Notes under the pieces: generated by a model | Database searches by the model: none | Told to the model about the DNA's origin: nothing | The model's input: only the letters and a program-made list of their open reading frames with translations | Translations under genes and position numbers: made by a program | In this document: positions 11,917-50,428 of the stretch, in pieces | Layout: every line of letters begins with the position of its first letter | Position numbering within the stretch: position 1 is the first letter of the stretch | DNA from: a virus | Virus record (IMG/VR): IMGVR_UViG_3300009177_000049 | Coordinates: 1-53,430 of that record | Reading direction: 5' to 3' (one strand) | Length of the DNA: 53,430 bases

Positions 11917-12253
11917 GGCCTCACCGTACCGCTGGGCGGTGCCGAAATGTAGACACCCGTGTAGACACCCTGTAGACACCCCCTCGTGTCTACACATAAC
12001 CGCAGGTCAGAGGCATGTAGACACCGTAGACACCAAAAAAGACCAAAGTTTATGAGTGTCACACTCAGAAAGAATCCGCTTTTCTGGTGTCTACAGTGTC
12101 TACATCGCGCTGACCTGGGGAAACGCAGCGATTCGAGGTGTCTACAAGTGTGTCTACACGGGTGTCTACACGGGTGTCTACACGCTCTCGCCGCCGCCCA
12201 GCCGCCGCTGCTACTGTTCGTCACATCGTCCGCCCGACCTACCTAGGAACGAC
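11917..12253. promoter_or_regulatory. Divergent intergenic region between the lysis and packaging operons
   Basis: This 337-base stretch has no convincing gene. It separates the leftward lysis operon (start 11916) from the rightward packaging operon (start 12254), and is mostly filled by the repeat array described separately. The symmetric layout suits back-to-back promoters. I cannot name a clear sigma-A -35/-10 pair. Bases 12183-12253 hold only a GC-rich leader with a weak AGGAA before ATG 12254. Confidence 0.6.
11948..12182. repeat. Mirror-symmetric array of TGTAGACACC repeats, centre 12060
   Basis: Copies of TGTAGACACC or one-mismatch forms lie at 11948, 11960, 11971, 12016 and 12025. 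Inverted copies begin at 11985, 12086, 12095, 12137, 12149, 12161 and 12173. The centre is a perfect 15-bp palindrome TGAGTGTCACACTCA (12053-12067). Around base 12060 the parts mirror exactly: 12016-12034 pairs with 12086-12104, and CAGGTCAG (12003-12010) with CTGACCTG (12110-12117). Outer copies mirror within 2-3 bases. This is not a CRISPR array, as there are no long spacers. It is probably a protein-binding promoter/operator or an origin. Confidence 0.9.
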
Positions 12254-19032: not shown

Positions 19033-19247
19033 GACGTCACCAGGTGAACGTGACCGGTGAGTACCCATACGGACTGGCCCACCTTGCTCTGGTCAGTCCG
19101 GTCGACGATGCTCTTCATCTTCACCCGCACCGAATGGTGTGGCTTCAGCTGAACCTCTTCGACCTCCGCGTAGCCCTCATACCCAAGCGGGTCAAGGACA
19201 TACACTTCCTGGCCGATCTTGGGCTGCCAGTCCATCGGGTCGCTCAC
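19029..19247 (-). CDS. 72-residue SH3-like unknown protein
   Basis: This is a short beta-rich protein (IGQEVYVLDPLGYEGYAEVE; VRVKMKSIVD; VGQSVWVLTGHVHLV), consistent with a small barrel such as those that modulate nucleic-acid enzymes. ATG 19247 overlaps the prim-pol stop, and its own stop overlaps the zinc-finger start. No named family is claimed. Confidence 0.65.
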   Translation of the reverse strand: MSDPMDWQPKIGQEVYVLDPLGYEGYAEVEEVQLKPHHSVRVKMKSIVDRTDQSKVGQSVWVLTGHVHLVTS

Positions 19248-20092
19248 GGCAGGCCGTACTTGTTGATGTTGGCCACCAGCTTGGCGACCTCGTCCGCCGG
19301 CAGGCCGACATCGAGCGCCCTGTCCTGCAGCAGCTCCTCCCAGCCAGGGATCTGCGCCTGCTGCATCTGGCTGCCGATGGCGAACAGGGTCTGGTTGCGC
19401 TTCCCCTGCGGCATCGGCTTCTTCAGGTCGTCGATGATCTCGTCGTGCATCATCAATACCTCCATCTCATCCTCGTTCGCCAGGACCTTCGTGATCCTGG
19501 CTGCGGTCGCAGCGATCTTCTGATCGCGTGCGTTCAAGATCTGGAACAGGTGGTCCGGCAGCTTGGCCGGTTGCCTCCCGTTCCACCTCTGCGTGTCGTA
19601 GTGGTAGACGCATCCGGTCGCCCGGAAGTCCACGCCCTGCTCGACACCGATGCGATCGTTCAGCAGGCCGTAGCCCTTGACCGCATCCCACTTGTCGTCG
19701 ACGACGTAGAACAGGTGGTACCCGTCTCCCGACTTCGACGTCTCCGCCATCGTCGGCGGCAGCACGCCCAGCCTCTTGGCATGGTCGAGCCCACCGTTCT
19801 TCCCGTCGATGTCGATGCACACCAGCAGCACCGACCGCATCACGTAGGCGTACGCCCACCTGCCGCGGCGGTAGCCGTACAGGATGCGACGCTCGTCGAA
19901 CTCGCCACGCATGTACTTCTCCATGAACCCCGGACCGGACGTGGACGTAAGTCCCCAGCCTGTATCGGTCCGACCATCAGGCCACACCCTTACCAGGGCG
20001 GTGCCCTTCGGTCCGGCGTAGTTCATGAACGCCACGTTCCGTTCCTCGGTGTCGTAGACGTCAGTCCTCCACCAAGGCAGTGATGTCGTCAT
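19244..20092 (-). CDS. Bifunctional primase-polymerase (AEP/prim-pol family)
   Basis: This 282-residue protein has archaeo-eukaryotic primase motifs: D94-I-D96 in VLLVCIDIDGKNGG (metal-binding), S121-G-D-G-Y-H126 in the nucleotide-binding motif, and FRATGCVYHY near 176-185 as the third motif region. It makes primers or short DNA for replication. The next gene upstream is an SF3 helicase, the usual partner, overlapping it by 32 bases. The helical C-terminus (about 200-282) resembles PriCT-type linkers. Confidence 0.85.
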   Translation of the reverse strand: MTTSLPWWRTDVYDTEERNVAFMNYAGPKGTALVRVWPDGRTDTGWGLTSTSGPGFMEKYMRGEFDERRILYGYRRGRWAYAYVMRSVLLVCIDIDGKNGGLDHAKRLGVLPPTMAETSKSGDGYHLFYVVDDKWDAVKGYGLLNDRIGVEQGVDFRATGCVYHYDTQRWNGRQPAKLPDHLFQILNARDQKIAATAARITKVLANEDEMEVLMMHDEIIDDLKKPMPQGKRNQTLFAIGSQMQQAQIPGWEELLQDRALDVGLPADEVAKLVANINKYGLP

Positions 20093-21452
20093 GTGGATCC
20101 TCCGCTCTCTGTGTCTCCATGAACGCAGCCGCCTCCTCCTTCAAGCCGACCACGAACCTGACCTTGCTCACCTTCTCGTTGGACCTCACCGACTTCCGCT
20201 CGGTCTCCAGCAACGGCTGGAACTGAGCGAACACGTCGGGCTCGGACCAACCACCGAGATCGTTCTCGGTGTGCAGCCGCCACGACTTGAACCCCGTCAC
20301 GACCACACTGAACTCCTCACCGAACAGGGAGTTCACCCCGTTCGGCTCGGTGTCCTCCACGTACTTCAAGTACTGCAGACCCGTGGAGTTCACCAGCATC
20401 TGCTCAAGCTGCAGCTCGAGCGCACGACTCGTCGGCGCCAGCTCGCCGGCCACCGCATCCTCGAGGATGTAGCGGTCGACCAGCAGCGACAGCAGCGCAC
20501 CGAGCATCCGCTCGCTCAGCATCCGCCGCTCGAACCGGTGGTCCAGCCGGTACACGTTCGGGAACTGGAACCGGACCAACCGCTTCTGCAGGGCAGCAGA
20601 CTTGTCGCTCGTCTTCGGCTCACGGTTCAGACCCTCGAGGAACAAGGCGTTCGTCTGCACCTGCGTCGACTTGGACTCGTACAGCTTCCTGATCGACACG
20701 GGCTCACCCGCGATCAGGGACTTCTCCGTTCCACTGTCCTTCAGGTACACCGCCTGACCGTCGAAGACGATGTTCAGCAGTTTCCCGTTGAGCTCGGTGA
20801 CCACCGGGCTCTGCTCGGAGATCATCTGCCGAGTCACACTCGACACGTTCTCCGCACCGAACAGGTGCTGCAGCATCTTCAACGCCACAGACTTCCCGTT
20901 CCTGCCCTCACCGATCAGCAGGATGTACTTCACTGCCGACCAGCCTGGTGACAGGCTGGACGCCAGGTGCTTCAGGAACGACTCGGCCTCCTCGTCGGAG
21001 TTGAGCCAACCCGACACAACCTCGAAGACGTAGTCCTTGTCGGCCTTGTCCTCGTTCAGCATCGGCACCAACGTGTTGGGACGGAAGTCCCCACTCGGTG
21101 CCACCAGATCACCACGGTGATCCAGCTCTCTCAACCCTGCTTGGGTCCTGACCAGCAACGACGTCACCGGCTTGTCGTTGTGACTGGCGTTCTGCGCCAC
21201 CATGTAGTCGTAGTTCACCAGCTCCGAGGAGTTGGCGAACAAGATGTCGAACTCGTCGGCAGCCATCCGCTCCACCTGTTCCAGGCTCAGCGGCAACCAC
21301 ATGGTACGGTCGATGTCCGGTGGAACGGACACGTCACGGGTCTCATAGTCAGCAGGGATATAGGTGACGCCACGGTGGCGCACCAGCTGATGACCGGAAG
21401 CGAGACTGAAGGCATAGGTAGCCAGCTCCTTCCGGGTCTTGGGCTCTAGCAT
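20061..21452 (-). CDS. SF3-type (D5-like) replicative helicase
   Basis: This 463-residue protein has an N-terminal D5_N-like region (YVFEVVSGWLNSDEEAESFL) and a superfamily 3 ATPase: Walker A G181-E-G-R-N-G-K-S188, Walker B near 225-240 (LLNIVFDGQAVYLKD) and motif C ALFLEGLN (about 269-276). It should form a hexamer that unwinds DNA, working with the prim-pol encoded right after it. I choose ATG 21452 over an in-frame ATG 15 bases earlier because AAAGGAG lies 5 bases before it. Downstream of the core, a winged-helix-like C-terminus follows. Confidence 0.85.
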   Translation of the reverse strand: MLEPKTRKELATYAFSLASGHQLVRHRGVTYIPADYETRDVSVPPDIDRTMWLPLSLEQVERMAADEFDILFANSSELVNYDYMVAQNASHNDKPVTSLLVRTQAGLRELDHRGDLVAPSGDFRPNTLVPMLNEDKADKDYVFEVVSGWLNSDEEAESFLKHLASSLSPGWSAVKYILLIGEGRNGKSVALKMLQHLFGAENVSSVTRQMISEQSPVVTELNGKLLNIVFDGQAVYLKDSGTEKSLIAGEPVSIRKLYESKSTQVQTNALFLEGLNREPKTSDKSAALQKRLVRFQFPNVYRLDHRFERRMLSERMLGALLSLLVDRYILEDAVAGELAPTSRALELQLEQMLVNSTGLQYLKYVEDTEPNGVNSLFGEEFSVVVTGFKSWRLHTENDLGGWSEPDVFAQFQPLLETERKSVRSNEKVSKVRFVVGLKEEAAAFMETQRAEDPHDDITALVED

Positions 21453-21475
21453 GCGTGCTCCTTTCATCCCGGTGG

Positions 21476-33874: not shown

Positions 33875-34231
33875 TTACTCCACACCTAGATCATCGAATG
33901 AGATAGACACGCCTCTCGATGCATACATGGCTACCATCGCTTCGGTGTTGGCCCTCGCTTGACGAGGATCAACGCCTCGCTCGATGAAAGCCTCATACTC
34001 TCGCTGAAGATCAGCGAGTACCTGAGCTCGCACATACTTCGAGTCAGGCAAAGCGTTGTGACGGACCGGACCAATGCTGGCCGGACTCAACATCCCAAGG
34101 TCCACCACATGTGTGGTGAGTACGTGGTCCACGTACTTGGACAGAGTCCAGCCCTTCAGACGTGCAGCTGTCTCGAGAGACGAGCGCACGTCGGCGGCAA
34201 CACGAGCAGTGATCGTTGTGTTCATAGTCAT
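33875..34231 (-). CDS. Ribbon-helix-helix DNA-binding regulator
   Basis: This 118-residue protein has an Arc/MetJ-like N-terminus: TTITARVAADVRSSLETAAR then LKGWTLSKYVDHVLTTHV (strand, helix, helix). The C-terminal half is helical (YVRAQVLADLQREYEAFIER) and may mediate oligomerisation. ATG 34231 (or 34225) lies 8 bases from a perfect palindrome CGTACAC-GAT-GTGTACG and beside the repeat array centred at 34397. Inferred: an autoregulated repressor or early/late switch. It is the most upstream gene of the leftward operon. Confidence 0.8.
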   Translation of the reverse strand: MTMNTTITARVAADVRSSLETAARLKGWTLSKYVDHVLTTHVVDLGMLSPASIGPVRHNALPDSKYVRAQVLADLQREYEAFIERGVDPRQARANTEAMVAMYASRGVSISFDDLGVE

Positions 34232-34287: not shown

Positions 34288-34506
34288 TGTAGACACCCCA
34301 TGTAGACACCCTGTGTACAACTGCAAACGTGCAGGTCAGACGGCACATGGTGCATGTAGACAGCCTTCACATACCAATCTCACCAGAAGGTGTACAACAT
34401 ACACCTAGGGATGAGGTTAGATACGAGAAGGTGTCTACACACCACATGCACCGCCTGACCTGCACAGATGCAGTTGTACACAGGGTGACTACACCAGGTG
34501 TCTACA
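34288..34506. repeat. Mirror-symmetric array, centre 34397, related to the array at 12060
   Basis: Every part has its mirror at the exact expected base around 34397. TGTAGACACC 34288 pairs with 34497. TGTAGACACC 34301 pairs with GGTGACTACA 34484. CTGTGTACAACTGCA 34311-34325 pairs with 34469-34483. CAGGTCAG 34332 pairs with CTGACCTG 34455. TGTAGACAGC 34355 pairs with GGTGTCTACA 34430. The centre is AGGTGTA-CAACA-TACACCT (34388-34406). It shares TGTAGACACC and CAGGTCAG with the first array. Probably a protein-bound control region or replication origin. Confidence 0.9.
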
Positions 34507-34855
34507 CACCGCCGGCCCAATCAGCTCGGTGCCCTCGCTGCCCAGTGAACCGAGCACAGCTCGAGACACAGCTACCGCTGTGACAATGCTGATACGCAAT
34601 GCATTGCGATAAGAATATGATCGAGCGTGGCAAACCACATTATGACTGTGTCATAAAATCCGTCATGCTCTAACAACCACATTGCGCATGCACACCTTGT
34701 CTTGTGACAATCCCTCGCCCAGTAGCCTGGGCGCAAACGTCACGAGACTAGGTGAAAGTATGTTGTGTCATGTTGTGTCTTCTCATCAACGCATACGCAT
34801 TGTGAAAAAAAGAGCATGACTCCCAGCATAAGCTGGAAGCCACACTCGATCCCAA
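34507..34855. promoter_or_regulatory. AT-richer intergenic region with palindromes
   Basis: I see no supportable gene here. It holds CGCAATGCATTGCG (34595-34608), TTATGAC-TGT-GTCATAA (34640-34656), a tandem ATGTTGTGTC (34760-34779), ACGCATACGCAT (34789-34800), and a weak promoter-like TTGTGA...TAGCCT (34702-34728). The base composition is visibly richer in A+T than the surrounding genes, as is common at regulatory or origin sites. Confidence 0.6.
34805..34841 (-). terminator. Probable terminator of the 34856-35089 gene
   Basis: On leftward RNA, GGCUUCCAGC and GCUGGGAGUC (34841-34818) form a 10-bp stem with two G-U pairs and a UUAU loop. A U7 run follows after six bases (A7 at 34805-34811). 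It begins 15 bases after the gene's stop. Confidence 0.6.
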
Positions 34856-36228: not shown

Positions 36229-36235
36229 AGTAGTG

Positions 36236-39200
36236 GTGGGCAAGTACGACTCGAGTGCGTTGCAGCCGTGGCTGGGTCAGTCTCAGAACCCTGCTGCCCC
36301 CGAGGGGATGCAGCAGGCTGCGCGGGCCGGTGGTGGTGTGGCCGCCGGCGTCCCGATGTACGACTCGTCCAAGCTGGGTGCGTGGGTGACGGACCCGGAG
36401 ATCGGGTACACGGGTGCAGCGCAGTCCTGGTACACGGGTGCGAACTTCGACGGCACGAACAACGGGTATGACAACCAGTTCGTGAGTGACTACATGTCCA
36501 AGTGGAACAAGGCGTTGGAGGAGGGGACGGCGAACACGTACTTCGAGCAGGAGCATGCGACGGGAATCGTCACCTGGGATCACACAGGTACCGATGGGAC
36601 GCAGTTCAAGTACGGGGATGTCTACGTCAACGGCGACAAGGTCGCCAACATGTACGACAAGAAGGACGGCGGGTTCGACGAGAACACCGCGAACCTTGCG
36701 ATGTCCACGTGGACGTTGAGCAAGGACCAGAAGGCGCACGCGTTCTCGGCCTCCGACCCGTTGCAGCACCTGGGTCGTGAGGTTCAGGCGCAGCGGGAGA
36801 AGGACAACGTCGAGATCCCGCAGCAGCTGAAGGCGATGGAGTTCAACGCGGACGTGAAGGACACGGCGCACCAGTTCGAGGAGGGAACGACCGATGAGGC
36901 GATCATCCTGGGTGGTGCCGCGGGTGGCGCGGCGTTGGGTACAGGTGTCGGTGCGGCGATTGGCTCGACGTTCTTCGGTGTGGGTGCTGCGGTGGGTGCC
37001 CCGGTGGGTGCCGGCATCGGTGCGCTGGTCGGTGGCGTCGGCGCGTTCCTGAACAAGGACAGTCTGACGGAGCAGGCTGCGAGGGCGTACGAGATCACGG
37101 CGCTGTCCACGGACCAGTACGGCTCCGGTGCCGGGATCTCGACCGGTGTCCAGCAGTGGGGTGGTTTCGCGGGCCGGTTGATCTCCCCGCTGCAGAACAC
37201 CGAGCAGGGGCTGTACGACTGGTCCCAGGGTGATGTGGGTGATGGCGAGTCGGCGTTCTACCGGACCGACAAGTCCGGGAAGTCGACGACGCCGGCGTGG
37301 GTGAAGGTGGCCGATGTCGGTGCTGCGCTCGGTGACGGTGCGCTGCAGTTCGCGTCCCCGATCGGTCGCGGGCTGTACATGGCACAGATGGGTTCCACTG
37401 TCGCAGGGGAGACGGCGGAGCTGGCGCTGACCGGTGGCTCCCAGTTCGACTACAACAAGGGCGGGTTCGACAACGTCTTCAAGGACGAGGCGGGGCACTT
37501 CAGCCCGTCCCAGGGTGCGGCTGGGATTGCGAAGATCGGTGTCGATGTGGCGCAGATCGGTCTCGCCAGAGGGCTGTTGACGAAGTCGTGGGCTGGTCGT
37601 GAGGCTGCGGGGCTCAGCCAGATGGGCGCCGCACCGGGAGCCGTAGGCACTCTCGGTACGGCTGTCTCGGGTAGGGCGGTGGCCCGTGATGTGCTGCCGA
37701 CGTGGGCCGGTGGAAGGACTGCGGCGCAGAAGGCTGCGCTCGAGGCCGGCGGCAAGGAGGAGATCGAGTCGGGCTACCGGTACATCACCGACGATGTCGG
37801 GCAGGTGGTCGGCAAGAGGTACCGCACGATCTCCCTGCTGGCTCCGTCCGAGGCGATCTCGAGTCTGAGCACGCGGGTGATCGCGTTGCGCGGGAAGGAG
37901 GTCGGCCAGGGTGCGTTGAAGGCCGACGACTTCTACCGGGCCGCACAGTCGATGGCCCAGGGTGAGCGGCGGTTCACCACGGCGCTGGTGAACGGGTTCG
38001 GCGAGGGCACCGAGGAGGTGATCCAGTCTGCGCTCGAGTCGTACTCCCACGGTCACGGCGTGGGCAGCATGCAGGACATGGTGAACTCGGGGCTCTACGG
38101 GGCTGCCGGTGGTGTCGGGATGGGTCTGGGCATCAACGCCCACTCCCCGACGGCGGACGAGAAGCTGGACGGTCAGGTGAAGATCGCTCACTACTTCCAG
38201 ACCGGTGGCGAGGTGCTCTCCGATGAGGCGTTGGCGTCGATGACGCCGACGGAGAAGCGTGCGAAGGCGCAGATGGGGAAGCTTGAGCGGGAGACCGCGA
38301 AGGCTGCGTTCACCAAGTACGCCGACGACCGGGCTGCGGACTTCACCGCAGGTGTCGCAGGCGTGAACAAGGTGGTCGACGCGATCAACACGTCCAGGTC
38401 GGAGTCGTTGAAGAACTCCGCGCCGCACACCGACCAGCCGTTCGTCATCACCCAGATCGAGGATGCCGGCCAGGTCGATGCGAACGGGCAGCTGCTGCGC
38501 GGCAGCGTCCCCTCCGATGCGGTGGTCTCCTCCGGTGCCCAGCTGATGCGGAACTTCGGCAACCGGATGCGTGGTATCACCGAGCAGCTGACGCTGCTGA
38601 AGAACAACGAGGTGCTGAAGCAGGCCGACCTCGACAAGAAGCCCGCCGACGAGGGGCTGCAGAACGACCTGGCGAAGATCCAGCAGCAGACCAAGCAGAT
38701 CAACGAGATGATCCGGCTGGGTCAGGCGTTGGGTGCCGAGATCGACGACCGGGTGGGTCGCATGTACGACCCGAACGCCTCGGTTGCGGCCCGTGCGGCG
38801 GAGACCGAGGGGCTGAACCAGTTCCTCCGGGACGCGTTCAACCGGCGTGCCGGTGATGTGAACGGTGTCCCGGTGACCACCGACGAGGAGCGGATGGCGT
38901 TGGCGCGCGCCGTGTCCCAGGTGGTGACCAGGGACCCGCAGGACCAGTCGGGCTCCTACCAGGTGCTGGTGCCGCAGGCGTCACTGAAGCTGACGGTGTC
39001 GAACTCCGACAACGTCCTGGAGATCAGCCACGCGATCCTTCCGGCGATCCGCGGCGACTACGACGGCGACAAGATCAGGACCCAGAACCAGCTGCTGCTG
39101 GACGAGGACATGTTTGTGTCGGCTCGTGCTGGTATGCATTTCCTCGGGGCCGGCACCAGCGTGAACGTGAAGGCCCCGAAGTACGAGAAGTGGGTGGTGC

Positions 39201-42200
39201 AGTACATCCAGGAGGCGTTGACGTCCACGGAGCCGGCGCTGGTGAACGCCGCCACGGGTGCGATGACGTCGGTCACCGAGGCGATCCGCAACCGGTATGA
39301 GGCGATCATCGGTGACGAGATCCTCGATCCGGTGTTCGCCAAGTTCTTCGCTGCGGTGCGTACCGGTGACGGTGACGCCCGCAGCGTCCTGATGGACGGG
39401 CTGCTCGAGGTGGCCGACGGTCCGATCAACACGTTCGCCAGGGGCAACCTGAGCAACGAGTGGCTGTGGATGGACCAGCTGGTGCGGGCCCAGTTCCAGG
39501 CGTTCCAGGAGGACTACGCCTCCTACCGGGCGATGCTCGGCCCGACACCGGGGACCGTGAAGAAGGGCCGCCCGGTGAAGCGTGTGTCCGAGGCACGGGA
39601 GCGCCGGGCCGCACGGTCCGCCACCACCGGTCAGACCATCGGGAACTGGCTGGCCGGCGACCTGATGTTCCGCAAGTTCCAGAAGCTCCACTACACCTCC
39701 CTGTCCGCCTCCGTGCAGTCGTCCGCGAACCCGACGCAGCGTGCCGAGCTGTATGCGCTCGCCTCCGAGTACGAGCTGCTGTCGGCTATGGCGACCCAGT
39801 CCGAGCTGGACCGGGTGCATGGGGTAGACGAGATCACGGCACGGGTGATCGCCCAGCTGAAGGCGCTCGCGGACAACGCCACCGACCTGGATCCGGCGCT
39901 GTCGCAGACCCAGGCGATGGCGGTGGTGGCGAACGTCGCGGTCCTCGACTACGACATCGACTCCGACGGCAACGTGACGACCACCGGACGTGAGATCACG
40001 TTGGCGCAGATGCTGCTGAAGCAGGAGCTGCGCCGGGACCGTGTCGCCAAGGACGCGATCTTCGAGATCTCACCGGAGCTGCAGGCCAAGCACGCCCGGC
40101 TGCGGGCGATGACGAAGCCCGACGGCCAGGGCGTCAAGGGCTCCGGCCTGAACGCGCAGCGGGCGTTCGTCGAGGTGTTCGGAGCGTTCCAGCTGTTCAC
40201 GCTGATCGGTGACGCAGCCGGACTGATGGGACCCCACATCAGTGTGGAGCAGTACGTCAGGTTCTACACCGCCAAGGACGAGGGCGAGCGGAAGTCCGAG
40301 GACTACAAGCTGAAGAACGAGGCCGCCTACCTGGGACGCGAGTCGGCGGCAAACATGCCGTACTCGGTGGCCGAGGTCGCAGCCGGCGACGTGTCCCCGT
40401 ACCGCAGCGTCATCGACTCGATCATCTCGGTGGGCCACAACCGCATCACCCTCGACAAGAAGATCGCTACCGGCAACGACTACAACGCGCACCACCTGAA
40501 CGGCGAGTTCTCCGATGCGCACTACCGGGCCTCGGAGGCGTTCAAGAACTCGCACAAGGATGTCCGGGAGGCGCTGTTCAAGTTCTCCGAGCTGTCCGGG
40601 CGTCGTGTCGACGAGCTCACCCTCGACATGGTGCAGCGGATGCTGGACCAGAACCCGACGTTCGCGGAGAAGGTGATGGCGCTGATCCCGGACGCCGCCG
40701 CGAACGCCGTCTTCGAGCGTCGCGGTGACGACCTGTACATCGCCAACTGGGTCTACAAGATGTTCACCATCACCAACGCCGACGAGGCGGAGATGCACTA
40801 CTGGCGCAACGTGATGCTGGCCCAGTGGGAGTCACTGGGCATGCACGCCCGTACCGAGAAGGATGCGGACGGTCACCAGGGTCGCCGGTACAACAAGCTC
40901 GAGCGCCGCATGTTCAAGATCATGTACGACCTGTCTCCGCAGATGCAGCAAGACGGCGGGCTGCTGATGACGAAGTTCATGCACGAGCTCCAGAACGCCA
41001 AGAACCTGGAGCAGTTCCTCCGCTGGGTGAACACCACGCCGGGGATCCGTGGCAACCAGGCACCCATCGTCGGCTGGTACGACGACTCCGCCGCCTTCGA
41101 TGCGGACAAGGCGAACGGTGGCTGGTCGACCGGCATGAAGGGCGTGACCCAGCGTGAGGCGATCGCCTCCCTCGAGGTCGGGGCCCAGTACCTGAAGAAG
41201 GACCTGGTCGAGGAGCAGAACATCCAGCGGTCCGACAACCAGGTGTACCTCGCCATCGAGCGGGTCCTGAAGTCCGACGCCGGCGCACCCAATGTCACGG
41301 CCACCACCGAGGACCGCAGGCTCTACGACGCGTTCGTGGCGTCGCTGAAGAACTCCCGCGAGATGAACGTGGGGCTCGGGCCGCAGGCGATGATGTACCA
41401 GGTCATCGGAGCGGTCCGCGGGTTCTACCCGAAGGCCCACACCAAGGGCGAGAACCCCGACAACGTGGACCCGGCTGGTGCGTTCGACGCACAGCGCGAC
41501 GCCTACGACTACGTCACGAACTACGAGCGGTTCAAGGCGTCCATGACGGCGGTGAACCTCGACGCGATCAGCGGCAACATGTCGCAGCTCGCCAAGGACG
41601 GCGTCGTCACGATGGACGACGACGGACGCCAGGTCGAGTGGGAGATGCCGGTCGACTCCGAGGGCAACCCGACAGCAGAGTCGGTGGCCAAGGCGCTGGC
41701 GCTGTTCTCCAACCCCGACACCAGGCCGATGGCCAGGTCCGTGCTGTTCCCGCAGGTGATGGAGCGTGGCCCAGAAGGCAGGCTCACCACCCAGATGCTG
41801 GTCGGCAAGGACCTGAAGTCGCTGCTCGAGGGCGACCACTACAAGAAGATGTTCGCCCACGACAACAGCATCGACAACGACTCCGCGATGCGTTACTGCG
41901 CGATGCTGGAAGCCACCGCCCGTAACCACAAGGGCCACTTCTCGGTGCAGCGGATCGTCAACGACATCGTGATCGCGGAGACCAGTGGTGCGAACCACAC
42001 GCTGTCCACCTCCGAGATCGAGCGTGCCGCGCAGCGGGCGTTCCGCACGGTGGCGAAGATCGTGCAGGACGCCGCGGCCATCGCCTCGGTCCCCGACGGC
42101 ACCGGGGACGCCACCTTGAAGCAGGTGATGTCCGAGGTTCATGCGGCACGCCGGATCCAGCGCACCGCAGGGCTGCTGGGCTTCGGTGCCCGGCCCGGTG

Positions 42201-45200
42201 AGGACGTCAAGGAGGCAGCCGCGCGGTTCGCCTACACCGATCTTGCCCTGGACCAGCTGGTGGCACAGCGTCGCGGGGAGATGAACGACGAGATCACCCA
42301 GATCGAGGCGAAGCTCGTGCCCGGCCTGGACATCCACGAGGTCGAGAAGATCGAGCGTGAGACGTTGGGCGCCCGTGCCGACCTTGAAAAGTTCGAGGCC
42401 CGTGTCGAGCTGCTGCGCTCCGACGACCCAGCCGGCCAGGCCGTCGACATGTTCTCCTTCCACTCCGATCCGTTGACCGAGACCGACCGTCAGCGGGAGA
42501 TCATCCAGTACATCATGTCCGCGCCGGACAAGTTCCGCCGGAAGTCGCAGTCCACCATCCAGATCATGATGAAGCTGTCCGGCCAGCTCGAGGACAAGTC
42601 CCGTTCCGGGCAGGTGGACCTGTCGGCTTCGGAGTGGAACCACCTGTCGCGTGCCACCATCACCGTGTTCCTCGACGACATCGTGTCGATGGGCTCCGGT
42701 GGCATCTCGGTCTCCCCGTACCCGGACGCGACCAGGCCCGACAACACCCGCTACTACGACACGTCGTACGCCTACCTGGCCGACACGCTGCTGGACCCGA
42801 CGAAGCCGCTGCTGCTGGCCGGTCGGGACATGCACAGGTGGGCCGGGCTGCAGGGTGACATCCCGCCCAGCCCGACCGAGCTGAAGAAGACCATCGAGCT
42901 GAACCTGTACCCCGACTTCCGGTACGGCCCGTGGACCGGGGACATCCCACGAGCCTCCATCGAGGCCAACCAGCGGCTCGACTCCGCCGCCGCAAAGCCG
43001 GTGATCGGGATGACCGGCAACGCGCCGAAGCGTCAGGCAGCGAAGTCGGCTGCCACCAGGCGCACCTTCCGGGTACCGGGTGCCGAGCTGCTGTCGAAGG
43101 TCACGCTGCAGGCCAGCGACCTGAACAGGTCGCTGTTCGACGACGTCGAGGTGACCCATCCCGGTGACCGTGCGGTCGCGCGACCACTGGCACAGCTGAA
43201 CAACCGCTTCGCTGCCCGCGTGATGCTGCGCCACTACCAGCCGGGAACCTACCTCGACGCGACACCCATCGACCTGCTGGCCTCGGACCTGAACCTCGGC
43301 CACGTCTTCCACACCAACGACAACGCGGTGGCCTCCGGCTACAAGGAGATCCACCTGGACCGGCTGAAGGTCGCGCTCGAAGCCTCCGGTGTCGACCCGA
43401 GTGACGTGGCCGGCATTGACATCGAGTTCTTCCATCCCGACATGCAGCCGGTCGAGACCCAGGAGGAGTCCGACAAGGGCCGCACCTGGTACAACAACCT
43501 GTTCTTCGAGGGCACCAGCTTCAAGCGTGACTCGGATCGGGCCGAGTCCCTGAACGCCACGCTCTGGTTCACCGAAGGCTCCATCAACCCGGTGATGCAG
43601 GCGTGGGGCCTGGACGCCTCGAAGCTCGGACGCTCCGCCATCGAGGTCATCGAGACGATGACCCACGCCGAGCGCAAGGCCATCGAGAACGACTGGGCCA
43701 CCGACCTGTCCCATGTGCTGCGGATGAAGACCCAGGAGATGCTGACCAAGCAGCTCGGTCTCGGTGACCCCGAGAAGGGCTCGAAGGGGATGCTCGAGCC
43801 GGAGTTCTACAACGCCGTCTACAAGGACATGAAGCTTCAGCACCTGGTGGTCGGCAAGGCACAGGGCACAGGCGACCGGCTCGTGTGGACCGCCGAGCAG
43901 GTGATCGCCTGGCAGCAGGCCAACCCCGGTGTCGCGCTCCCCATCGACGACGCCAAGCTGTACATGCCCTCCGACACGGTGCTGAACTCGATGCTCGGTG
44001 AGCAGGGCACCCAGGGTGCCACCCGCGTCTTCGACGACGTGCTGTCCGCCGACCTGTCCCAGGTCCCCGCGTACCGGGGCGTGTCGACCAAGATGCTGGA
44101 GAACTTCAAGCACGGGCTGAACGGCGAGTCGAAGCCGTTGCCGGAGACCAGGATCGCCAACCGTGCCCGGCAGCAGACGCTGCAGACCCGTGCCTACCTC
44201 GACGAGAAGACCCGCAACGCCTACGAGGCGAAGATCAGGTACCTCGCCGAGAAGCGCGAGGAGATCTGGGACGACCGCGCCAACTACAACGGACAGACCG
44301 GTGAGGGCGGCTGGAACCCGCGCACCAACCTGGGTCGTGCGTTGCAGACAGCGGACCTGATGCTGCGTGCCGAGAACATCTCGATGGACTGGACGGCAGG
44401 CGGGCTGCCGTTCTTCGGCTCCCGCAAGAACAAGGACATGGAGCTGTCCAAGATGCTGCTCCACGAGCTCGAGGCGGCACTCGAGGTCAAGGGCAGCCGG
44501 TCCGGCTGGATCTTCCGCGAGGACCAGGCGTCCGACGCGAACGCAGGGCTGATCTCCGGGGTCACCCTGTCCACGTCCTCGGGTGCGAAGCGGATCGCAC
44601 CCGGCGACCTGGTCGTCGTCGAGCTCGACTCGTTCCGTGGTAACGCCGCGAAGATGCGGGAGCGTCTGGACTACATCGCGGACCAGGGTGCCACCATCGT
44701 CCTCGGTGCCACCGACGGTGAGGCTGACATGCGTGTCGAGGCCACCCAGTTCATGGAGTCCATCGACTACATCAGGATGGCCGGCTCGGGACACGTCTAC
44801 CAGCCTGCGATCACCACACCCCGGTTCCAGAACCAGCGGGCCCTGATCTCCTCGCTCACCGCCACTCGTGGCGTGTCACCCCGTTCGCACCTGGCGATCT
44901 TCAACGTCCAGGGGCTCAACGTCGAAGAAGGCTCGCTGTGGGTCGACTTCAAGAACCCGCGTCTGCACGCCATCGCGGAGACCCTGAACCTGGTGCCGAC
45001 CAACTACCTGGCCGGGTTCAACGTCCCGGTCGACGAGATGACCGACGACCGGATCCACAAGACCCAGATCACACGGGTCCGCAACCAGGTGCTCGGCTTC
45101 AAGAACGACCCCGAGGGCCGACAGATGCTGCGTGACATGGCGCACGGTCCCGAGACCGAGCAGGGCAAGAAGCTCACACCCGCCGAGCGTGCCCACCTCG

Positions 45201-48200
45201 ATACCGAGTTCGACTTCTACTTCGACCGGATGATCGACCGGCTCGAGCTGCACGCCGGCTCCGTCCTGCCCCAGGCCGGAGACGACTTCGGCACCGGGGA
45301 CATGATCCCGCTGGTCGGACCCGGCGACACCGTGCTGCTGTACCGGCACGGACACGAGGCGCCGGACTGGGACAAGGTGATGACACAGAAGCGCGTCACC
45401 CGGCCCGCCAAGCACGAGCCGGCGAACATGGCCGTGTTCTCCTCGACCCGCAACCCGAACGCTACATCCCACACAGGGACCGTCGTGGAGTTCAACCCGC
45501 GCTCCAACTACGGCCTGTCCGTCCGGCTCGAGATCGACCTACAGGTTCTCGGTGACAAGAAGGTCCTGGAGTGGAACGGGCAGAAGTACGAGCTCACCGC
45601 CCGTCCCGACCGCATCCAGTTCCCCACCTACCAGGGCAAGGAGCACGGCTTCCTCACCAACTGGGACATCGACGGCGTCGGCAGCCTCGATGACGCCATG
45701 AGCAAGGAGTCGACCGACGGGATGATCGTCGACCACCAGTCGGCGTTCAAGTTCCTCGGCATCGACTTCACCGACGACGTCGCCACCTTCCTCGGTGTCG
45801 ACGCCACCACAGCCGTCGACTTCCTGAAGCTGATCGCAGCCCAGGCTCCGAGGATCCAGGTCACCGCAGCCGACGAGATCCTCAACTCCGAGCGGATCAC
45901 CGAGGCCCTGCGCAGCCAGCTCGACGGCTTCGCCCTCACCAACGCCGAGACAGTCGACCCGTCGTGGGTCGACAACATGGCGGACCCCGCATCGGTGGAG
46001 GCGAAGATCGCCACCTCGATGATCGTCTACCTGATGACGCCCGGTGCTCGTGTGGGGGACGTGCTGAAGTCCGGTGGCTTCAACGACAGGACCAGCAGCA
46101 TCGACCACAAGTCGGTCGAGATGCCGATTCTTTTCACCCAGGTCTTCGACAACTCCGGGCTGGACTCCGATCTCCGCAACGAGATCAACGAGCGGATCAA
46201 CTCCCAGTTCTACAACCCGAACCAGGACGGCACCGGCTACTCGATGTCTAAGTCGTGGCGGTTCGAGTCCCGCCACGCCGACCCGAGGAAGAACCAGGTA
46301 GGCGTCCTGCAGTTCGCCGAGGCCCACTCCGCCGGGGACAACCCCGTCATCAACGGGATGTCGTTCGACGAGGCGACCCGGTCGAACGTCAGCCAGCACT
46401 CTGCTGCCATCGCCTACCAGGCGACCGGTGCGCTGACCGCACACTCCTACGAGGTGGCGAAGGCCCAGCTGTTCTCCTCCACCACCATCGAGCCGCACGC
46501 CCGCGACACCGAGGACGGCGGGCTGTGGCGGATGCTGACCGGCATCCCGTTCGAGGACCGTCGCGCCGGATCCTTCTGGAAGGCGGCGTCGCCGGCTGAG
46601 GCCGAGCGCATCGACCTCGCCCGTGACGCCATCATCCAGGATCGGGTCGAGATCAAGCAGCTCGACGAGAACGGATGGACCGCTACACAGCGCACCGAGT
46701 ACAACGCCGCCGCGGTCAGTGTCATGCAGACCCTCGGGCTCGACCCGCTGCAGGTGAAGCTCGTCGACTACTGGGTCCGGCAGACACTCGGGATGCCGCA
46801 CGGCACCGACGCCAACGGCGACGACGTCGGTAAGGTCAGCGGCAGCGCAGCGATCGAAGCGGTCAAGGACATCGCCTGGAACGTGAACCACAACTACCTC
46901 CCTGTCGTCGGAGCCGAGGTGCCGCTGCTCCACGTCCACGACCTGCAGGCGATCTTCCGTGCCAACCAGCACCGGTCCCCACAGTGGCAGCCGAAGGCCG
47001 GGCTCGAGGACAACAACATCAAGGCCGGGACCTGGGACGAGTGGGTCAAGACATCGCTCGGTGGCGCGTTCACCTCCGACCACCTGTTCGACCCGCTGTA
47101 CCTGCTCGCCCTCGACGGGTACATGCACACCTACCAGTCGGCCACCCGCGACCTCCTCGACCTGCCGGTGTCGATGGACGTGCTGGTCACACAGAACCTG
47201 ATGGACGAGACCACGAACCGGCTGTTCGTCTCGGTCTCCGACGAGCAGCAGCTGATCGCCACCGACCCGGTGACCCTCGACCTGCAGCGCGCATCCCTCG
47301 ACAACCTGATCGGTGGACAGCGGGTATCGGGCCGGCTCGTAGCGAAAGCCGCTCCGGTCTCCGAGGTCGCCAAGCGTCGTGACGCACGACGCAAGTGGCG
47401 CAAGGAGAACGGGATCCCGCTGCCACTGGACGTCTCGATGAAGGACTTCCTGAAGAACGGCGGAACCTTCACCGACCGGGCCACCACCGTCAACGGCCTG
47501 TACCGCGCCCTCATCAACCTCCGAGTCGGTACCGCGCTGCTCAACCCTCAGCTCTACGTCTCGATGGGACCCGAGCAGTTCGTCCGAGGCGTGCTCGACC
47601 GCACCGCAAACCTGCTCACCATGCAGTCCACCGCGGTAAGTGTTGGACGGAAGGGCCAGGTCAAGGGCCTCGCCGGTCGGCAGGCCCGGCTCACCGAGCG
47701 CCTGGCCGACACCACCCTCGGCGCCGGCCTGTCCCGGCTCGGGCTCGAGGCCGCGTACCGCCCGGACCAGCTGGTCAAGCTGAACAAGCTGTACACGGTG
47801 ATGGGCCAGCGCAACGACTTCAAGTCGATGGTCTACAAGGAGCTGTTCTTCCTGCGCCCGCACGAGCCCGGTGTCGGGAAGGCCGAGCGTTGGCTTGAGA
47901 ACTACGCCAAGCTCGGCACCAAGGTGCAGGACCCGACGTGGGGTACCCGCGCCAACACGCTGGCACGCCGCTACATGGAGGCTGCGCTGTCGCACATCAT
48001 GGCGACCCCGACGATGAACCAGCTCAGCGTCGACCGGCTGATCGCGGAGATGGCCACCAGCCCGCAGTTCTTGAAGCAGAACTTCCCGACGGCACACGAG
48101 GCCGGGATGAACTCCGTCGCCCAGCTGCGCTCGTTGAAGCCGACACCGCTGTCGCTCACGTTGCGCGGGATCTACGAGCCGCTGTCGGAGTCGCCGAACA

Positions 48201-50428
48201 TGGGACTCGCGTTCCTCGGCAACGTGGTGCTGAAGATGCCGATGCTGTTCAGCGGCTACGCCGTCAACGTGGCGACCACGATCCTCGGGCTGCAGGGCCT
48301 CTCGGACATGACGGCCATGTTCCTCGAGGGACGCAAGAAGGGACCGAACTCGCTGTTCGGTCGAGTATCGGCCAAGATCCGCGGCGTCCAGTTCGACCCG
48401 GAGATGGACGCCACCTTCGACATGTCGTCGGTCCTGGAAGGCGTCGACCTGTCACGCTCGTTCATCCGTGGCAGCCTCACTCACACCGGCCTCTTCGCCT
48501 TCGGCATGATGGCCGGTGGTCTCGGGCTGTCCGGTGAGGACGACGAGACCAAGAAGCGCCGGCGCCTGGCTGCTCTGCAGGGAGCACCGGTCATCTACGA
48601 CCCGCGTCGCATCGAGAACGACTTCCGCAACGCCGACGCCATGTTCGTCGACTGGCTGCCGCCGGGCATCGCGTCCATGTTCCGGGTTACCACCGACGAG
48701 GCGCCTGGCGGTGCCCGCTCGATGGTGCAGCTGAACTGGGTGCTGAAGCAGTTCATCTCCCCGATCATGGGGATGGAGAAGTTCTACGAGACCGGCGACT
48801 TCCGCAACGTCGGCTGGGGGTTCGAGGACGCGCTCGGAGCGTTCCCGCTCATCAACGCCAACACCTGGGACGACGCGTTCCAGACCGCAGCCGAGCTCGC
48901 GCAGATGGCAGACGATCAGTCGAAGCTCGGTGGAGCCCACAACATGCCGATCGCAGCAGGCTTCCTCACCAACGCTGTCGGCGTCTACGAGAAGATGCTG
49001 TTCGAGAACGCCTTCATCAACCAGATCTACGTGGCACGCGACGAGTACGACCGTGACCCGTTCGTACTGCCGCTGCGCAACGCCAGTCGCGAGCTGCAGG
49101 GCGACGCCGAAGGCAACCCGCGTCCACAGAACCTGTCGATGGAGTCCTACATCGACCCCGAGACAGGGCAGATCAAGCAGGGCTACCAGACTCGCAGCGA
49201 CAGCGAGGCCACACTCCACGCCTTCACCGAGAACCGCTTCTCCCTGGCCGTCATGTCGTCGCTGTTCGCCAAGATGACAGGCGGTACGCCCGACTACTTC
49301 CGCACGCAGATGCCGGAGAAGCTGCGGGAGATCGAGAAGCAGCCGATGACCAAGCAGCGGGCCGAGGCCATCGTCCGCTCCCTGTCACAGGCAGCCGGCG
49401 GGACCGAGGCGCTGTCCCTGGACGAGCTGATCTACAAGATCAAGGGCGACGCGATGGCGTCGAAGAACTGGAACGTCTACAACAACGCCGACAAGATCGC
49501 CCGCGCCAACTACCACCCCGAGATGCTCGAGCCGCTGTCGGTCCTCGACGCCCAGGGACACGAGGTGCTGACCAAGGCAGGCGCCCGCGGCATCTACCAG
49601 GGCCTCGCCAAGGGCTCGGTGAAGATCGGGGACGACAGCCTCCAAGGCATCTTCATCCCACGAGACATGCGCGTGCAGATCCAGAAGGAGTGGACCGAGG
49701 AGCTGATCCAGGAGGGCGTCGACATGGGCCTGGACCAGACGAAGGCCACGTCCCGGATGAAGCGCATCTGGTACGGCCCGCTGTCCAACCCCGACGCCCT
49801 CGGCATCGGAGACATCCTCTGGCACAAGGACATCTCGTATGACAAGTCGGTGGTCTACAAGCAGCTGAACACGACCTACGTCATGGGCCCCGACGGTCGT
49901 CCGTGGGCCACCGGCTTCAAGCGTGCCGGCGTGCTCGGCGCGTTTGGTCTGAAGCCATACCAAGAGGCGTACGTCTCCGAGCAGTCGGCCACCGGCAACG
50001 ACTCCCTGCTCAACACCACCGACCTCGTCAACGGTATGAACACAGGGCTGCGCGCGCTTCAGCTCGTCGACAAGTCCTCCTACATCCCGACCGATGTGGA
50101 GATCGGGAAGTCCATCGAGAAGGCCATCGCCGACGCTGCGAACAAGACGTACACCCCGCAGCAGCCGTACTCGAACTCCAACGGCAACGGCTACAGCCGC
50201 TTCCCGTACCACCGCTACTCCGGCTACGGGCGTCGGAGCTACGGCGGTGGCGGCTACAGCAGCAGCGGCTACAGCCAGTACAACAAGATGTACGCACTAC
50301 CCGGTGCGCGGGCCCCGTTCGGGGACGACATCCCGTTCATCAACACGTCGAGTCCTTTCATCCGTCGAGAGGACATCCACCGTGAGCGGGTCTGGTCCGA
50401 GCGAGGAAGGCTGAAGCAGTGGCAGTGA
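36236..50428 (+). CDS. Giant virion protein with an RNA polymerase beta'-like catalytic motif
   Basis: This 4730-residue single reading frame covers about a quarter of the window. GTG 36236 is 5 bases after GAGGAG; GTG 36233 is possible. Residues 226-272 form a glycine-zipper hydrophobic segment. At 899-945 come R899-D-P901, I-S-H932 and D941-Y-D-G-D945. This matches the order in the beta' double-psi barrel (R-x-P, I-x-L-H, D-F-D-G-D), where the three Asp bind catalytic Mg2+. Hydrophobic segments lie at 3988-4022 and 4082-4101. A Tyr/Gly/Ser-rich stretch (4644-4690) precedes the end. Its position before portal suggests a virion protein, and the membrane-like segments suggest ejection. Inferred: a packaged single-chain RNA polymerase. 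A second barrel is not securely seen. No other RNA polymerase is encoded. Confidence 0.8.
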   Translation: MGKYDSSALQPWLGQSQNPAAPEGMQQAARAGGGVAAGVPMYDSSKLGAWVTDPEIGYTGAAQSWYTGANFDGTNNGYDNQFVSDYMSKWNKALEEGTANTYFEQEHATGIVTWDHTGTDGTQFKYGDVYVNGDKVANMYDKKDGGFDENTANLAMSTWTLSKDQKAHAFSASDPLQHLGREVQAQREKDNVEIPQQLKAMEFNADVKDTAHQFEEGTTDEAIILGGAAGGAALGTGVGAAIGSTFFGVGAAVGAPVGAGIGALVGGVGAFLNKDSLTEQAARAYEITALSTDQYGSGAGISTGVQQWGGFAGRLISPLQNTEQGLYDWSQGDVGDGESAFYRTDKSGKSTTPAWVKVADVGAALGDGALQFASPIGRGLYMAQMGSTVAGETAELALTGGSQFDYNKGGFDNVFKDEAGHFSPSQGAAGIAKIGVDVAQIGLARGLLTKSWAGREAAGLSQMGAAPGAVGTLGTAVSGRAVARDVLPTWAGGRTAAQKAALEAGGKEEIESGYRYITDDVGQVVGKRYRTISLLAPSEAISSLSTRVIALRGKEVGQGALKADDFYRAAQSMAQGERRFTTALVNGFGEGTEEVIQSALESYSHGHGVGSMQDMVNSGLYGAAGGVGMGLGINAHSPTADEKLDGQVKIAHYFQTGGEVLSDEALASMTPTEKRAKAQMGKLERETAKAAFTKYADDRAADFTAGVAGVNKVVDAINTSRSESLKNSAPHTDQPFVITQIEDAGQVDANGQLLRGSVPSDAVVSSGAQLMRNFGNRMRGITEQLTLLKNNEVLKQADLDKKPADEGLQNDLAKIQQQTKQINEMIRLGQALGAEIDDRVGRMYDPNASVAARAAETEGLNQFLRDAFNRRAGDVNGVPVTTDEERMALARAVSQVVTRDPQDQSGSYQVLVPQASLKLTVSNSDNVLEISHAILPAIRGDYDGDKIRTQNQLLLDEDMFVSARAGMHFLGAGTSVNVKAPKYEKWVVQYIQEALTSTEPALVNAATGAMTSVTEAIRNRYEAIIGDEILDPVFAKFFAAVRTGDGDARSVLMDGLLEVADGPINTFARGNLSNEWLWMDQLVRAQFQAFQEDYASYRAMLGPTPGTVKKGRPVKRVSEARERRAARSATTGQTIGNWLAGDLMFRKFQKLHYTSLSASVQSSANPTQRAELYALASEYELLSAMATQSELDRVHGVDEITARVIAQLKALADNATDLDPALSQTQAMAVVANVAVLDYDIDSDGNVTTTGREITLAQMLLKQELRRDRVAKDAIFEISPELQAKHARLRAMTKPDGQGVKGSGLNAQRAFVEVFGAFQLFTLIGDAAGLMGPHISVEQYVRFYTAKDEGERKSEDYKLKNEAAYLGRESAANMPYSVAEVAAGDVSPYRSVIDSIISVGHNRITLDKKIATGNDYNAHHLNGEFSDAHYRASEAFKNSHKDVREALFKFSELSGRRVDELTLDMVQRMLDQNPTFAEKVMALIPDAAANAVFERRGDDLYIANWVYKMFTITNADEAEMHYWRNVMLAQWESLGMHARTEKDADGHQGRRYNKLERRMFKIMYDLSPQMQQDGGLLMTKFMHELQNAKNLEQFLRWVNTTPGIRGNQAPIVGWYDDSAAFDADKANGGWSTGMKGVTQREAIASLEVGAQYLKKDLVEEQNIQRSDNQVYLAIERVLKSDAGAPNVTATTEDRRLYDAFVASLKNSREMNVGLGPQAMMYQVIGAVRGFYPKAHTKGENPDNVDPAGAFDAQRDAYDYVTNYERFKASMTAVNLDAISGNMSQLAKDGVVTMDDDGRQVEWEMPVDSEGNPTAESVAKALALFSNPDTRPMARSVLFPQVMERGPEGRLTTQMLVGKDLKSLLEGDHYKKMFAHDNSIDNDSAMRYCAMLEATARNHKGHFSVQRIVNDIVIAETSGANHTLSTSEIERAAQRAFRTVAKIVQDAAAIASVPDGTGDATLKQVMSEVHAARRIQRTAGLLGFGARPGEDVKEAAARFAYTDLALDQLVAQRRGEMNDEITQIEAKLVPGLDIHEVEKIERETLGARADLEKFEARVELLRSDDPAGQAVDMFSFHSDPLTETDRQREIIQYIMSAPDKFRRKSQSTIQIMMKLSGQLEDKSRSGQVDLSASEWNHLSRATITVFLDDIVSMGSGGISVSPYPDATRPDNTRYYDTSYAYLADTLLDPTKPLLLAGRDMHRWAGLQGDIPPSPTELKKTIELNLYPDFRYGPWTGDIPRASIEANQRLDSAAAKPVIGMTGNAPKRQAAKSAATRRTFRVPGAELLSKVTLQASDLNRSLFDDVEVTHPGDRAVARPLAQLNNRFAARVMLRHYQPGTYLDATPIDLLASDLNLGHVFHTNDNAVASGYKEIHLDRLKVALEASGVDPSDVAGIDIEFFHPDMQPVETQEESDKGRTWYNNLFFEGTSFKRDSDRAESLNATLWFTEGSINPVMQAWGLDASKLGRSAIEVIETMTHAERKAIENDWATDLSHVLRMKTQEMLTKQLGLGDPEKGSKGMLEPEFYNAVYKDMKLQHLVVGKAQGTGDRLVWTAEQVIAWQQANPGVALPIDDAKLYMPSDTVLNSMLGEQGTQGATRVFDDVLSADLSQVPAYRGVSTKMLENFKHGLNGESKPLPETRIANRARQQTLQTRAYLDEKTRNAYEAKIRYLAEKREEIWDDRANYNGQTGEGGWNPRTNLGRALQTADLMLRAENISMDWTAGGLPFFGSRKNKDMELSKMLLHELEAALEVKGSRSGWIFREDQASDANAGLISGVTLSTSSGAKRIAPGDLVVVELDSFRGNAAKMRERLDYIADQGATIVLGATDGEADMRVEATQFMESIDYIRMAGSGHVYQPAITTPRFQNQRALISSLTATRGVSPRSHLAIFNVQGLNVEEGSLWVDFKNPRLHAIAETLNLVPTNYLAGFNVPVDEMTDDRIHKTQITRVRNQVLGFKNDPEGRQMLRDMAHGPETEQGKKLTPAERAHLDTEFDFYFDRMIDRLELHAGSVLPQAGDDFGTGDMIPLVGPGDTVLLYRHGHEAPDWDKVMTQKRVTRPAKHEPANMAVFSSTRNPNATSHTGTVVEFNPRSNYGLSVRLEIDLQVLGDKKVLEWNGQKYELTARPDRIQFPTYQGKEHGFLTNWDIDGVGSLDDAMSKESTDGMIVDHQSAFKFLGIDFTDDVATFLGVDATTAVDFLKLIAAQAPRIQVTAADEILNSERITEALRSQLDGFALTNAETVDPSWVDNMADPASVEAKIATSMIVYLMTPGARVGDVLKSGGFNDRTSSIDHKSVEMPILFTQVFDNSGLDSDLRNEINERINSQFYNPNQDGTGYSMSKSWRFESRHADPRKNQVGVLQFAEAHSAGDNPVINGMSFDEATRSNVSQHSAAIAYQATGALTAHSYEVAKAQLFSSTTIEPHARDTEDGGLWRMLTGIPFEDRRAGSFWKAASPAEAERIDLARDAIIQDRVEIKQLDENGWTATQRTEYNAAAVSVMQTLGLDPLQVKLVDYWVRQTLGMPHGTDANGDDVGKVSGSAAIEAVKDIAWNVNHNYLPVVGAEVPLLHVHDLQAIFRANQHRSPQWQPKAGLEDNNIKAGTWDEWVKTSLGGAFTSDHLFDPLYLLALDGYMHTYQSATRDLLDLPVSMDVLVTQNLMDETTNRLFVSVSDEQQLIATDPVTLDLQRASLDNLIGGQRVSGRLVAKAAPVSEVAKRRDARRKWRKENGIPLPLDVSMKDFLKNGGTFTDRATTVNGLYRALINLRVGTALLNPQLYVSMGPEQFVRGVLDRTANLLTMQSTAVSVGRKGQVKGLAGRQARLTERLADTTLGAGLSRLGLEAAYRPDQLVKLNKLYTVMGQRNDFKSMVYKELFFLRPHEPGVGKAERWLENYAKLGTKVQDPTWGTRANTLARRYMEAALSHIMATPTMNQLSVDRLIAEMATSPQFLKQNFPTAHEAGMNSVAQLRSLKPTPLSLTLRGIYEPLSESPNMGLAFLGNVVLKMPMLFSGYAVNVATTILGLQGLSDMTAMFLEGRKKGPNSLFGRVSAKIRGVQFDPEMDATFDMSSVLEGVDLSRSFIRGSLTHTGLFAFGMMAGGLGLSGEDDETKKRRRLAALQGAPVIYDPRRIENDFRNADAMFVDWLPPGIASMFRVTTDEAPGGARSMVQLNWVLKQFISPIMGMEKFYETGDFRNVGWGFEDALGAFPLINANTWDDAFQTAAELAQMADDQSKLGGAHNMPIAAGFLTNAVGVYEKMLFENAFINQIYVARDEYDRDPFVLPLRNASRELQGDAEGNPRPQNLSMESYIDPETGQIKQGYQTRSDSEATLHAFTENRFSLAVMSSLFAKMTGGTPDYFRTQMPEKLREIEKQPMTKQRAEAIVRSLSQAAGGTEALSLDELIYKIKGDAMASKNWNVYNNADKIARANYHPEMLEPLSVLDAQGHEVLTKAGARGIYQGLAKGSVKIGDDSLQGIFIPRDMRVQIQKEWTEELIQEGVDMGLDQTKATSRMKRIWYGPLSNPDALGIGDILWHKDISYDKSVVYKQLNTTYVMGPDGRPWATGFKRAGVLGAFGLKPYQEAYVSEQSATGNDSLLNTTDLVNGMNTGLRALQLVDKSSYIPTDVEIGKSIEKAIADAANKTYTPQQPYSNSNGNGYSRFPYHRYSGYGRRSYGGGGYSSSGYSQYNKMYALPGARAPFGDDIPFINTSSPFIRREDIHRERVWSERGRLKQWQ

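Follow-up and report, generated by a model that had tools for sequence, protein, structure and literature searches.

A mirrored iteron array as a candidate replication origin in podoviruses related to the cluster EK/Burrovirus phages

Among the closest described counterparts of the locus reported here are the replication systems of SaPI and SCCmec elements. In SaPI origins, according to passages of PMC9894130, opposed repeats load two head-to-head helicases. For the SaPI Rep/ori pair (SaPI5 Rep, PDB 7ola/7om0) and for SCCmec Cch2, passages of PMC7581432 and PMC9894130 describe a self-loading helicase of SF3 type with a C-terminal DNA-binding domain, as we propose for the present locus, together with oppositely oriented iterons and a Prim-Pol-type primase encoded beside the helicase or fused to it. 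The T-antigen origin of SV40 also resembles our proposal, in that head-to-head sites load two opposed SF3 hexamers (a passage of PMC9894130), but T-antigen binds through its N-terminal domain (a passage of PMC7581432), unlike the helicase discussed below, which has a predicted C-terminal winged helix. The two systems have no sequence kinship, and the array described here is longer and includes outer repeats.

The DNA that we analyzed, called the window throughout, is the whole 53,430-base IMG/VR record IMGVR_UViG_3300009177_000049. Unlike a SaPI, it represents a lytic podovirus with separate primase and helicase genes and with two arrays in one lineage, and to the opposed iterons it adds a mirrored companion box (box B) and a separate covarying hairpin. 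Phage P4 reportedly has a primase-helicase initiator, the alpha protein, and two separate loci, ori and crr, with the same iterons; these are said not to be mirrored arrays, and P4 is said to be a satellite with a fused protein, unlike the window. The SaPI origin lies directly downstream of rep (a passage of PMC7581432), whereas in the window 13 kb separate array 2 and the gene for the helicase. Since its origin would not lie directly downstream of the initiator gene, we do not file the window as a SaPI-type replicon, but consider only that it may work like one. In the literature searched, where subscription papers were thinly covered, no replication origin is described for these podoviruses, and section 20 of PMC7302621, on the group, makes no mention of one.

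Judged by its proteins, the window virus is akin to the Microbacterium cluster EK/Burrovirus phages, cultured podoviruses with one gene of >13 kb (PMC7302621, passages of section 20). Identity to Microbacterium phage Araxxi is 71% for TerL, 57% for the portal and 31% for the product of the giant gene, and the DNA polymerase and its counterpart in Arthrobacter phage MissAmericana share 46% identity. The group plan is present with its order unchanged: a giant gene of >13 kb, TerL, portal, Prim-Pol and DNA polymerase I. Because the genes are collinear with those of Araxxi and the join falls within a gene homologous to gp29, the window is, on the evidence of gene order, a circularly permuted, near-complete podovirus genome. 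The giant gene (36233..50428, + strand, 4731 aa), a homologue of the cluster EK giant gene, serves as the syntenic marker on the right-hand side of array 2; its family matches are weak only (PF21724 below its cut-off, and phrog_3405), and a collagen-like tail protein is encoded immediately to its left (35712-36191). The Prim-Pol primase gene is at 19244..20092 on the - strand. No tRNA genes were found within the window, and positions 33700-35700 had no match by DNA similarity among phage records. The cluster EK/Burrovirus phages Burro, Araxxi, Ashton, Alex44 and Pabst, together with MissAmericana, share with the window its genome plan, the helicase and Prim-Pol, and a mirrored array with the hairpin in the same place, but their repeat sequence differs from that of the window, and Araxxi, the cultured genome checked whole, has a single array, at ~18.65 kb, as opposed to two.

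Array 2 (34288..34506) occupies the large intergenic gap to the left of the giant gene and is syntenic with the arrays of the cultured EK/Burrovirus phages. Its six element pairs are all centred exactly on 34397, with no slip of register. The outermost pair is formed by iterons R1 (TGTAGACACC, 34288..34297, + strand) and R1' (TGTAGACACC, 34497..34506, - strand), followed by R2 (TGTAGACACC, 34301..34310, +) and R2' (TGTAGTCACC, one mismatch, 34484..34493, -; written GGTGACTACA in its pair with R2). Next come GTGTACAACTGC (34313..34324, +), mirrored at 34470-34481, and the companion boxes B and B' (CAGGTCAG, 34332..34339, +, and 34455..34462, -). The innermost iterons are R3 (TGTAGACAGC, one mismatch, 34355..34364, +) and R3' (TGTAGACACC, 34430..34439, -; written GGTGTCTACA in its pair with R3), and they enclose a core of 65 nt (34365..34429) that contains AGGTGTA (34388-34394) and TACACCT (34400-34406), the pair starting at 34388 and 34400 around the centre. 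The iterons are opposed and flank an AT-rich core, a putative melting region, in both arrays of the window (57% A+T in array 2 and 65% in array 1, with a genome value of 36%). In the window, array 2 shows the design in degenerate form, with no clear inner doublets.

Within ±109 nt of 34397, 78 of 109 mirrored positions are complementary, making this the best centre in the window. Array 1, centred on 12060, comes second with 69, and when the whole window was dinucleotide-shuffled 20 times, the maxima were 48-53. A repeat search returned inverted arms of 75 nt (34288-34362/34432-34506) that are 81% complementary. The first-pass annotation had located the named parts of array 2 correctly and mirrored them around 34397, listing five pairs where we count six, but its description of "perfect base-for-base symmetry" was an overstatement, as 31 of the 109 mirrored bases mismatch, although the register is exact. 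At ≤1 mismatch, TGTAGACACC occurs 20 times in the window, compared to 2.7 expected and a maximum of 7 in 100 shuffles, and the copies are distributed as 12 in array 1, 6 in array 2 and 2 elsewhere. CAGGTCAG is not enriched by count (6, with 3.5 expected; 6 was reached in 18 of 100 shuffles) and is notable only through its placement.

All 18 kin viruses whose gap was read, the window included, have a mirrored array to the left of the giant gene, and the repeat differs by lineage (TGTAGACACC, TGTAGTCACC, GGTAACG, TGTAACGA, GGTTACG and GTGAACCGC). In the syntenic gap, the repeat is GGTAACG in Araxxi and Burro, TGTAACGA in MissAmericana, TGGTTACG in Ashton, and GTGAACCGC in Pabst and Alex44; each of these six arrays is mirrored, with inner repeats round an AT-rich core plus a companion box. 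Metagenomic kin carry either TGTAGACACC (A type) or TGTAGTCACC (T type). The fuller arrays follow one order, namely outer repeats at a spacing of 11-13 nt, box B (mostly TTTSCSCAGGTCAGAGGC), a repeat doublet 8-9 nt apart, the core, and the mirror image of these parts. Core length by a script rule is 40-53 nt in 16 of 19 arrays, with 65 nt for array 2 of the window and none returned for G001_2 and G007_2; cores of other lineages, delimited by eye, measure 53-79 nt. The cores are 47-67% A+T, compared to near 36% for the genomes, and their sequence is not conserved between relatives.

Mirrored k-mers exceeded all 50 block shuffles in 26 of 26 array regions, the six cultured phages among them, the weakest cases being G007 (13 vs 10), G002 (16 vs 9), G004b (22 vs 16) and MissAmericana (11 vs 6); these regions were picked for holding arrays or the syntenic gap, and so the result is a confirmation rather than a blind survey. 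The cultured arrays were matched by blastn in 10, 22 and 33 Microbacterium phage records, sets that may overlap. Almost all of the matches listed have no annotation beneath them, and one overlaps a hypothetical protein. A reading of 25 stretches gave 16 with a mirrored array or half-array, 2 that were weak or cut (L033 and L010) and 7 that were not mirrored (L011, L020, L022, L025, L028, L031 and L032). Two of the last group, L011 and L020, are other viral contigs with direct arrays of TGTAGACACC at spacings of ~12 and ~36 nt. A literature search with the exact iteron returned nothing related among the matches listed.

In the genomes with both loci read, the two have the same version of the repeat: TGTAGACACC in the window, G001, G004 and G006, and TGTAGTCACC in G007 and G008; G045 has mostly the T-type repeat, with two A copies. 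Such concerted change within genomes points to a trans-acting reader. A dedicated recognition system had been proposed from the window by itself, with conservation in relatives set beforehand as a test; that conservation was found, and the proposal gains support from the recurrence of the design in many related viruses and from the joint change of the repeats within a genome.

Array 1 (11948..12182) has the parts of array 2 in fuller form, with 12 repeats at ≤1 mismatch and a 51-nt core flanked by repeat doublets; its inner and outer parts have slightly different centres, 12060 and 12065. It lies between homologues of Araxxi gp41 and gp43, the latter (12254..13009, +) being its right neighbor, and divergent start codons flank it at ~30 nt and ~72 nt. 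The leftward gene pair that adjoins it (11185-11867) encodes an M23-type metallo-endopeptidase and a phrog_2293 protein and has no Araxxi counterpart there. Araxxi has no array in the corresponding stretch, and array 1 is also absent from G011 and G012, which have gp43 with no array beside it; the two arrays are not a universal pair. Array 1 is a lineage-specific extra site, seen only in the TGTAG lineage, and in G002 it is reduced to the inner repeats and the AT-rich core.

Our candidate for the reader, and for the initiator, is the DUF5906 (SF3-type) helicase encoded at 20061..21467 (- strand), whose Araxxi counterpart is gp3. It matches PF19263 with an E of 1.7e-8, over the family cut-off, and PDB 7ola by sequence with an E of 1.3e-7 (phmmer). 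The best structural matches of its AlphaFold model (mean pLDDT, 73.8) are the SaPI5 primase-helicase, which is the top Foldseek match (E, 2.2e-7), and D5-type and NrS-1 proteins; VIA-align gave Z scores of 14.8 (286 aligned, rmsd 4.3) and 13.9 (338 aligned, rmsd 4.9), and the 7om0_D alignment covers residues 4-436. The model is weak in the ATPase part, with pLDDT <50 at 211-226, 237-272 and 282-295. At the C-terminal end it predicts a winged helix, with helices at 386-401 and 409-416 followed by a wing of two strands (420-429/432-442). Six of six cultured phages have the helicase, as do all seven array-bearing records of 52-55 kb that were searched (G001, G002, G007, G008, G012, G036 and G045), with no match in 11 shorter, partial records.

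Winged-helix residue 406, just ahead of helix 409-416, differs with the repeat in a set of 12 helicases from genomes of known repeat type, from which G010 (cut before the winged helix) and G025 (which repeats the G009 sequence there) were excluded. It is T, T, T, T, T, P with TGTAGTCACC (n=6) and N, N, N, N, G, V with TGTAGACACC (n=6), the window having G. The position was noticed on fewer rows, and three T-type genomes found afterwards gave T, T and P. Position 432 separated the first set as well, but this separation was lost in the set of 12. Strict separation of A from T repeats is seen in more columns of the helicase (6) than of any other of the 12 early proteins compared (0-3), although non-strict counts fail to single the helicase out (34 for the true partition and 32 for the next). 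We regard the co-variation of residue 406 with the repeat as suggestive of reading by the helicase. In the giant-gene tree, G007 (T repeat) groups with the window and G006 (A repeat) with support of 99/97, and in the helicase tree it is G001 (A repeat) that groups with the window and G006 (89/84), a phylogeny that weakly favors the helicase as reader. Adding rows left the helicase tree poorly resolved, and T-type helicases as one clade are neither supported nor rejected. Because residue 406 is one of five non-overlapping columns among 468 and this tree is poorly resolved, the pattern may also reflect shared ancestry.

A scan of IMG/VR with box B alone uncovered mirrored arrays with other repeats in viruses whose compared loci gave no protein match to the window: L325 (repeat AAAGTGGCAC, two mirrored boxes), and L289 and L268 (AAAGTGGGCA, variant boxes). 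PF19263 is present in both large records with such independent arrays (G032 and G033), against a background of 2 of 27 records with box B in which no array was detected; it was not found in L268, a 4.9-kb fragment. A further candidate, L322, with a GTGCGTACCG repeat and one box B, is not mirrored, lies in a record without PF19263 and was not counted.

To the right of array 2 is a structured element (34686..34757) that folds strongly as RNA on the + strand (z, -7.5). In 10 hand-picked viruses, its 7-bp stem is paired in 70 of 70 cells, six of the seven pairs change on both sides, and the covariation score is 1.08, compared to 0.24 in shuffles. The covariance model (R1), which matches 34716-34751 in the window, was searched against 44 sources and found one hairpin beside array 2 in each of 18 viruses at E <1e-8 (20 rows, two being second copies of the same record); the 18 are every virus with an array-2 region among the sources. 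Seven of these regions were outside the model building, and all seven are fully paired. No hairpin was present in the 700 nt searched upstream of the G011 giant gene, nor at E <0.5 in the 10 array-1 sources, a distribution that marks array 2 as the primary locus. Rfam gave no match at the array 2/hairpin locus of the window or in three relatives. The hairpin has conserved GCAARCGYC and CTAG motifs and could be an RNA, or a single-strand priming or nicking site.

Our preferred reading, which we consider fairly probable, is that array 2 serves as a replication origin, at which inverted iterons load the DUF5906 helicase as two hexamers placed head to head. Array 2 would then be the core of the origin of a lytic podovirus, with the repeats acting as iterons placed head to head around a melting core. 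The helicase would bind these through its C-terminal winged-helix domain, assemble as two opposed hexamers, open the core, and act in both directions with the phage Prim-Pol and DNA polymerase I. Boxes B and the right-hand hairpin would be accessory elements, and array 1 would be a second copy in this lineage, either another origin or a binding or control site. Several observations count against this: array 1 lies between divergent starts, array 2 is degenerate, the helicase gene is 13 kb off, and GC skew gave no origin signature (in Araxxi, a maximum near 21.6 kb and a minimum near 50 kb; in the window, only a local rise at 35-38 kb), so that skew was rejected as evidence for an origin.

The main rival is a divergent operator or promoter, at which a phage regulator other than the RHH protein would bind the repeats and drive or repress the early genes that run leftward from array 2 as well as those flanking array 1. 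Each array stands where a block of genes begins, array 1 with divergent starts on its two sides, and iteron binders often regulate transcription too. Operator and origin roles can coexist. We nevertheless consider this reading possible rather than likely. Sigma-70-like promoters, the only type scanned for, were not above chance at either array (2 vs 1.8 expected; 0 vs 0.1), and the gp43 start can lie anywhere from 62 to 223 nt past the outermost repeat (23 loci measured of 24 tried, most of them retrieved via the repeat itself), while Araxxi, G011 and G012 have gp43 without an array. The ORF to the right of array 2 (34856-35089), which has homologues in kin, is on the opposite strand, and hence a rightward mRNA is not evidently needed. 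The RHH-type small protein encoded 56 nt to the left of array 2 (33875..34231, - strand; a weak PF08681 match below cut-off) had been suggested in the first-pass annotation as the reader, and RHH proteins do bind short repeats, both direct and inverted. Whether as an autoregulator or as a centromere binder like ParG or omega, such a protein would be expected to stay beside its array, but a homologue is found there in just one of eight other IMG/VR array-2 records (G007), with no match in the loci of the six cultured phages and no relative in viral_contigs by a pattern search. The RHH protein is therefore not the general reader, and we think it very improbable that it reads the array in the window. 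Cluster EK and Burro are also described without repressor or integrase genes (PMC7302621, passages of section 20), and a partition system is accordingly not expected.

That description bears equally on a site for recombination, attachment or telomere resolution with arm-type sites, which a large symmetric site with inner inverted pairs could represent, the more so as box B in chromosomes is often beside tRNA genes, where integrases act. A scan of window proteins showed no integrase, the genomes are circularly permuted and the core sequence differs between relatives, and we give this explanation scarcely any weight. Returning to the origin, a more elaborate version of it is somewhat more doubtful than the operator: a two-key lytic origin, in which a lineage-swapped iteron "password" would be matched to the winged helix of the initiator, the fixed box TTTSCGCAGGTCAGAGGC, the same box that is scattered in actinobacterial chromosomes, would recruit a host factor, and the GCAARCGYC hairpin would mark strand priming.

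Should the origin reading be true, the origin and the initiator of a cultured phage group would both be identified, nature having supplied a series of variants in which repeat and winged helix are matched, and the origin specificity of D5/SaPI-type helicases would become testable by swaps in laboratory phages. The conserved structured element and the actinobacterial chromosomal motif also call for explanation.

This motif contains box B. The copies at 34332-34339 and 12003-12010 of the window belong to a longer motif, GCGTTTCCGCAGGTCAGAGGC, that is dispersed in actinobacterial chromosomes (loci L380-L497). The 19-mer GTTTSCGCAGGTCAGAGGC has at least 118 genome loci, compared to ~4 expected by chance (arithmetic from the collection size), and nearly all titles among the matches listed are Actinobacteria. 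A chance match accounts for most single 14-mer hits of box B, but not for the mirrored pairs of L325 or for the 19-mer genome count. Of the 118 listed loci, 29 are ≤150 nt from a tRNA end (40 of 2360 random positions), and 12 have an inverted second copy ≤200 nt away. We know of no name for the chromosomal motif, and a literature search with it gave nothing relevant among the matches listed. GCGTTTCCGCAGGTCAGAGGC is often 10-23 nt from tRNA genes in these chromosomes and is at times half of a long hairpin. In many viral records of 52-60 kb (L304, L305, L334, L336, L346, L347, L507, L508 and similar), box B is ~67 nt from the right end, perhaps near the packaging end.
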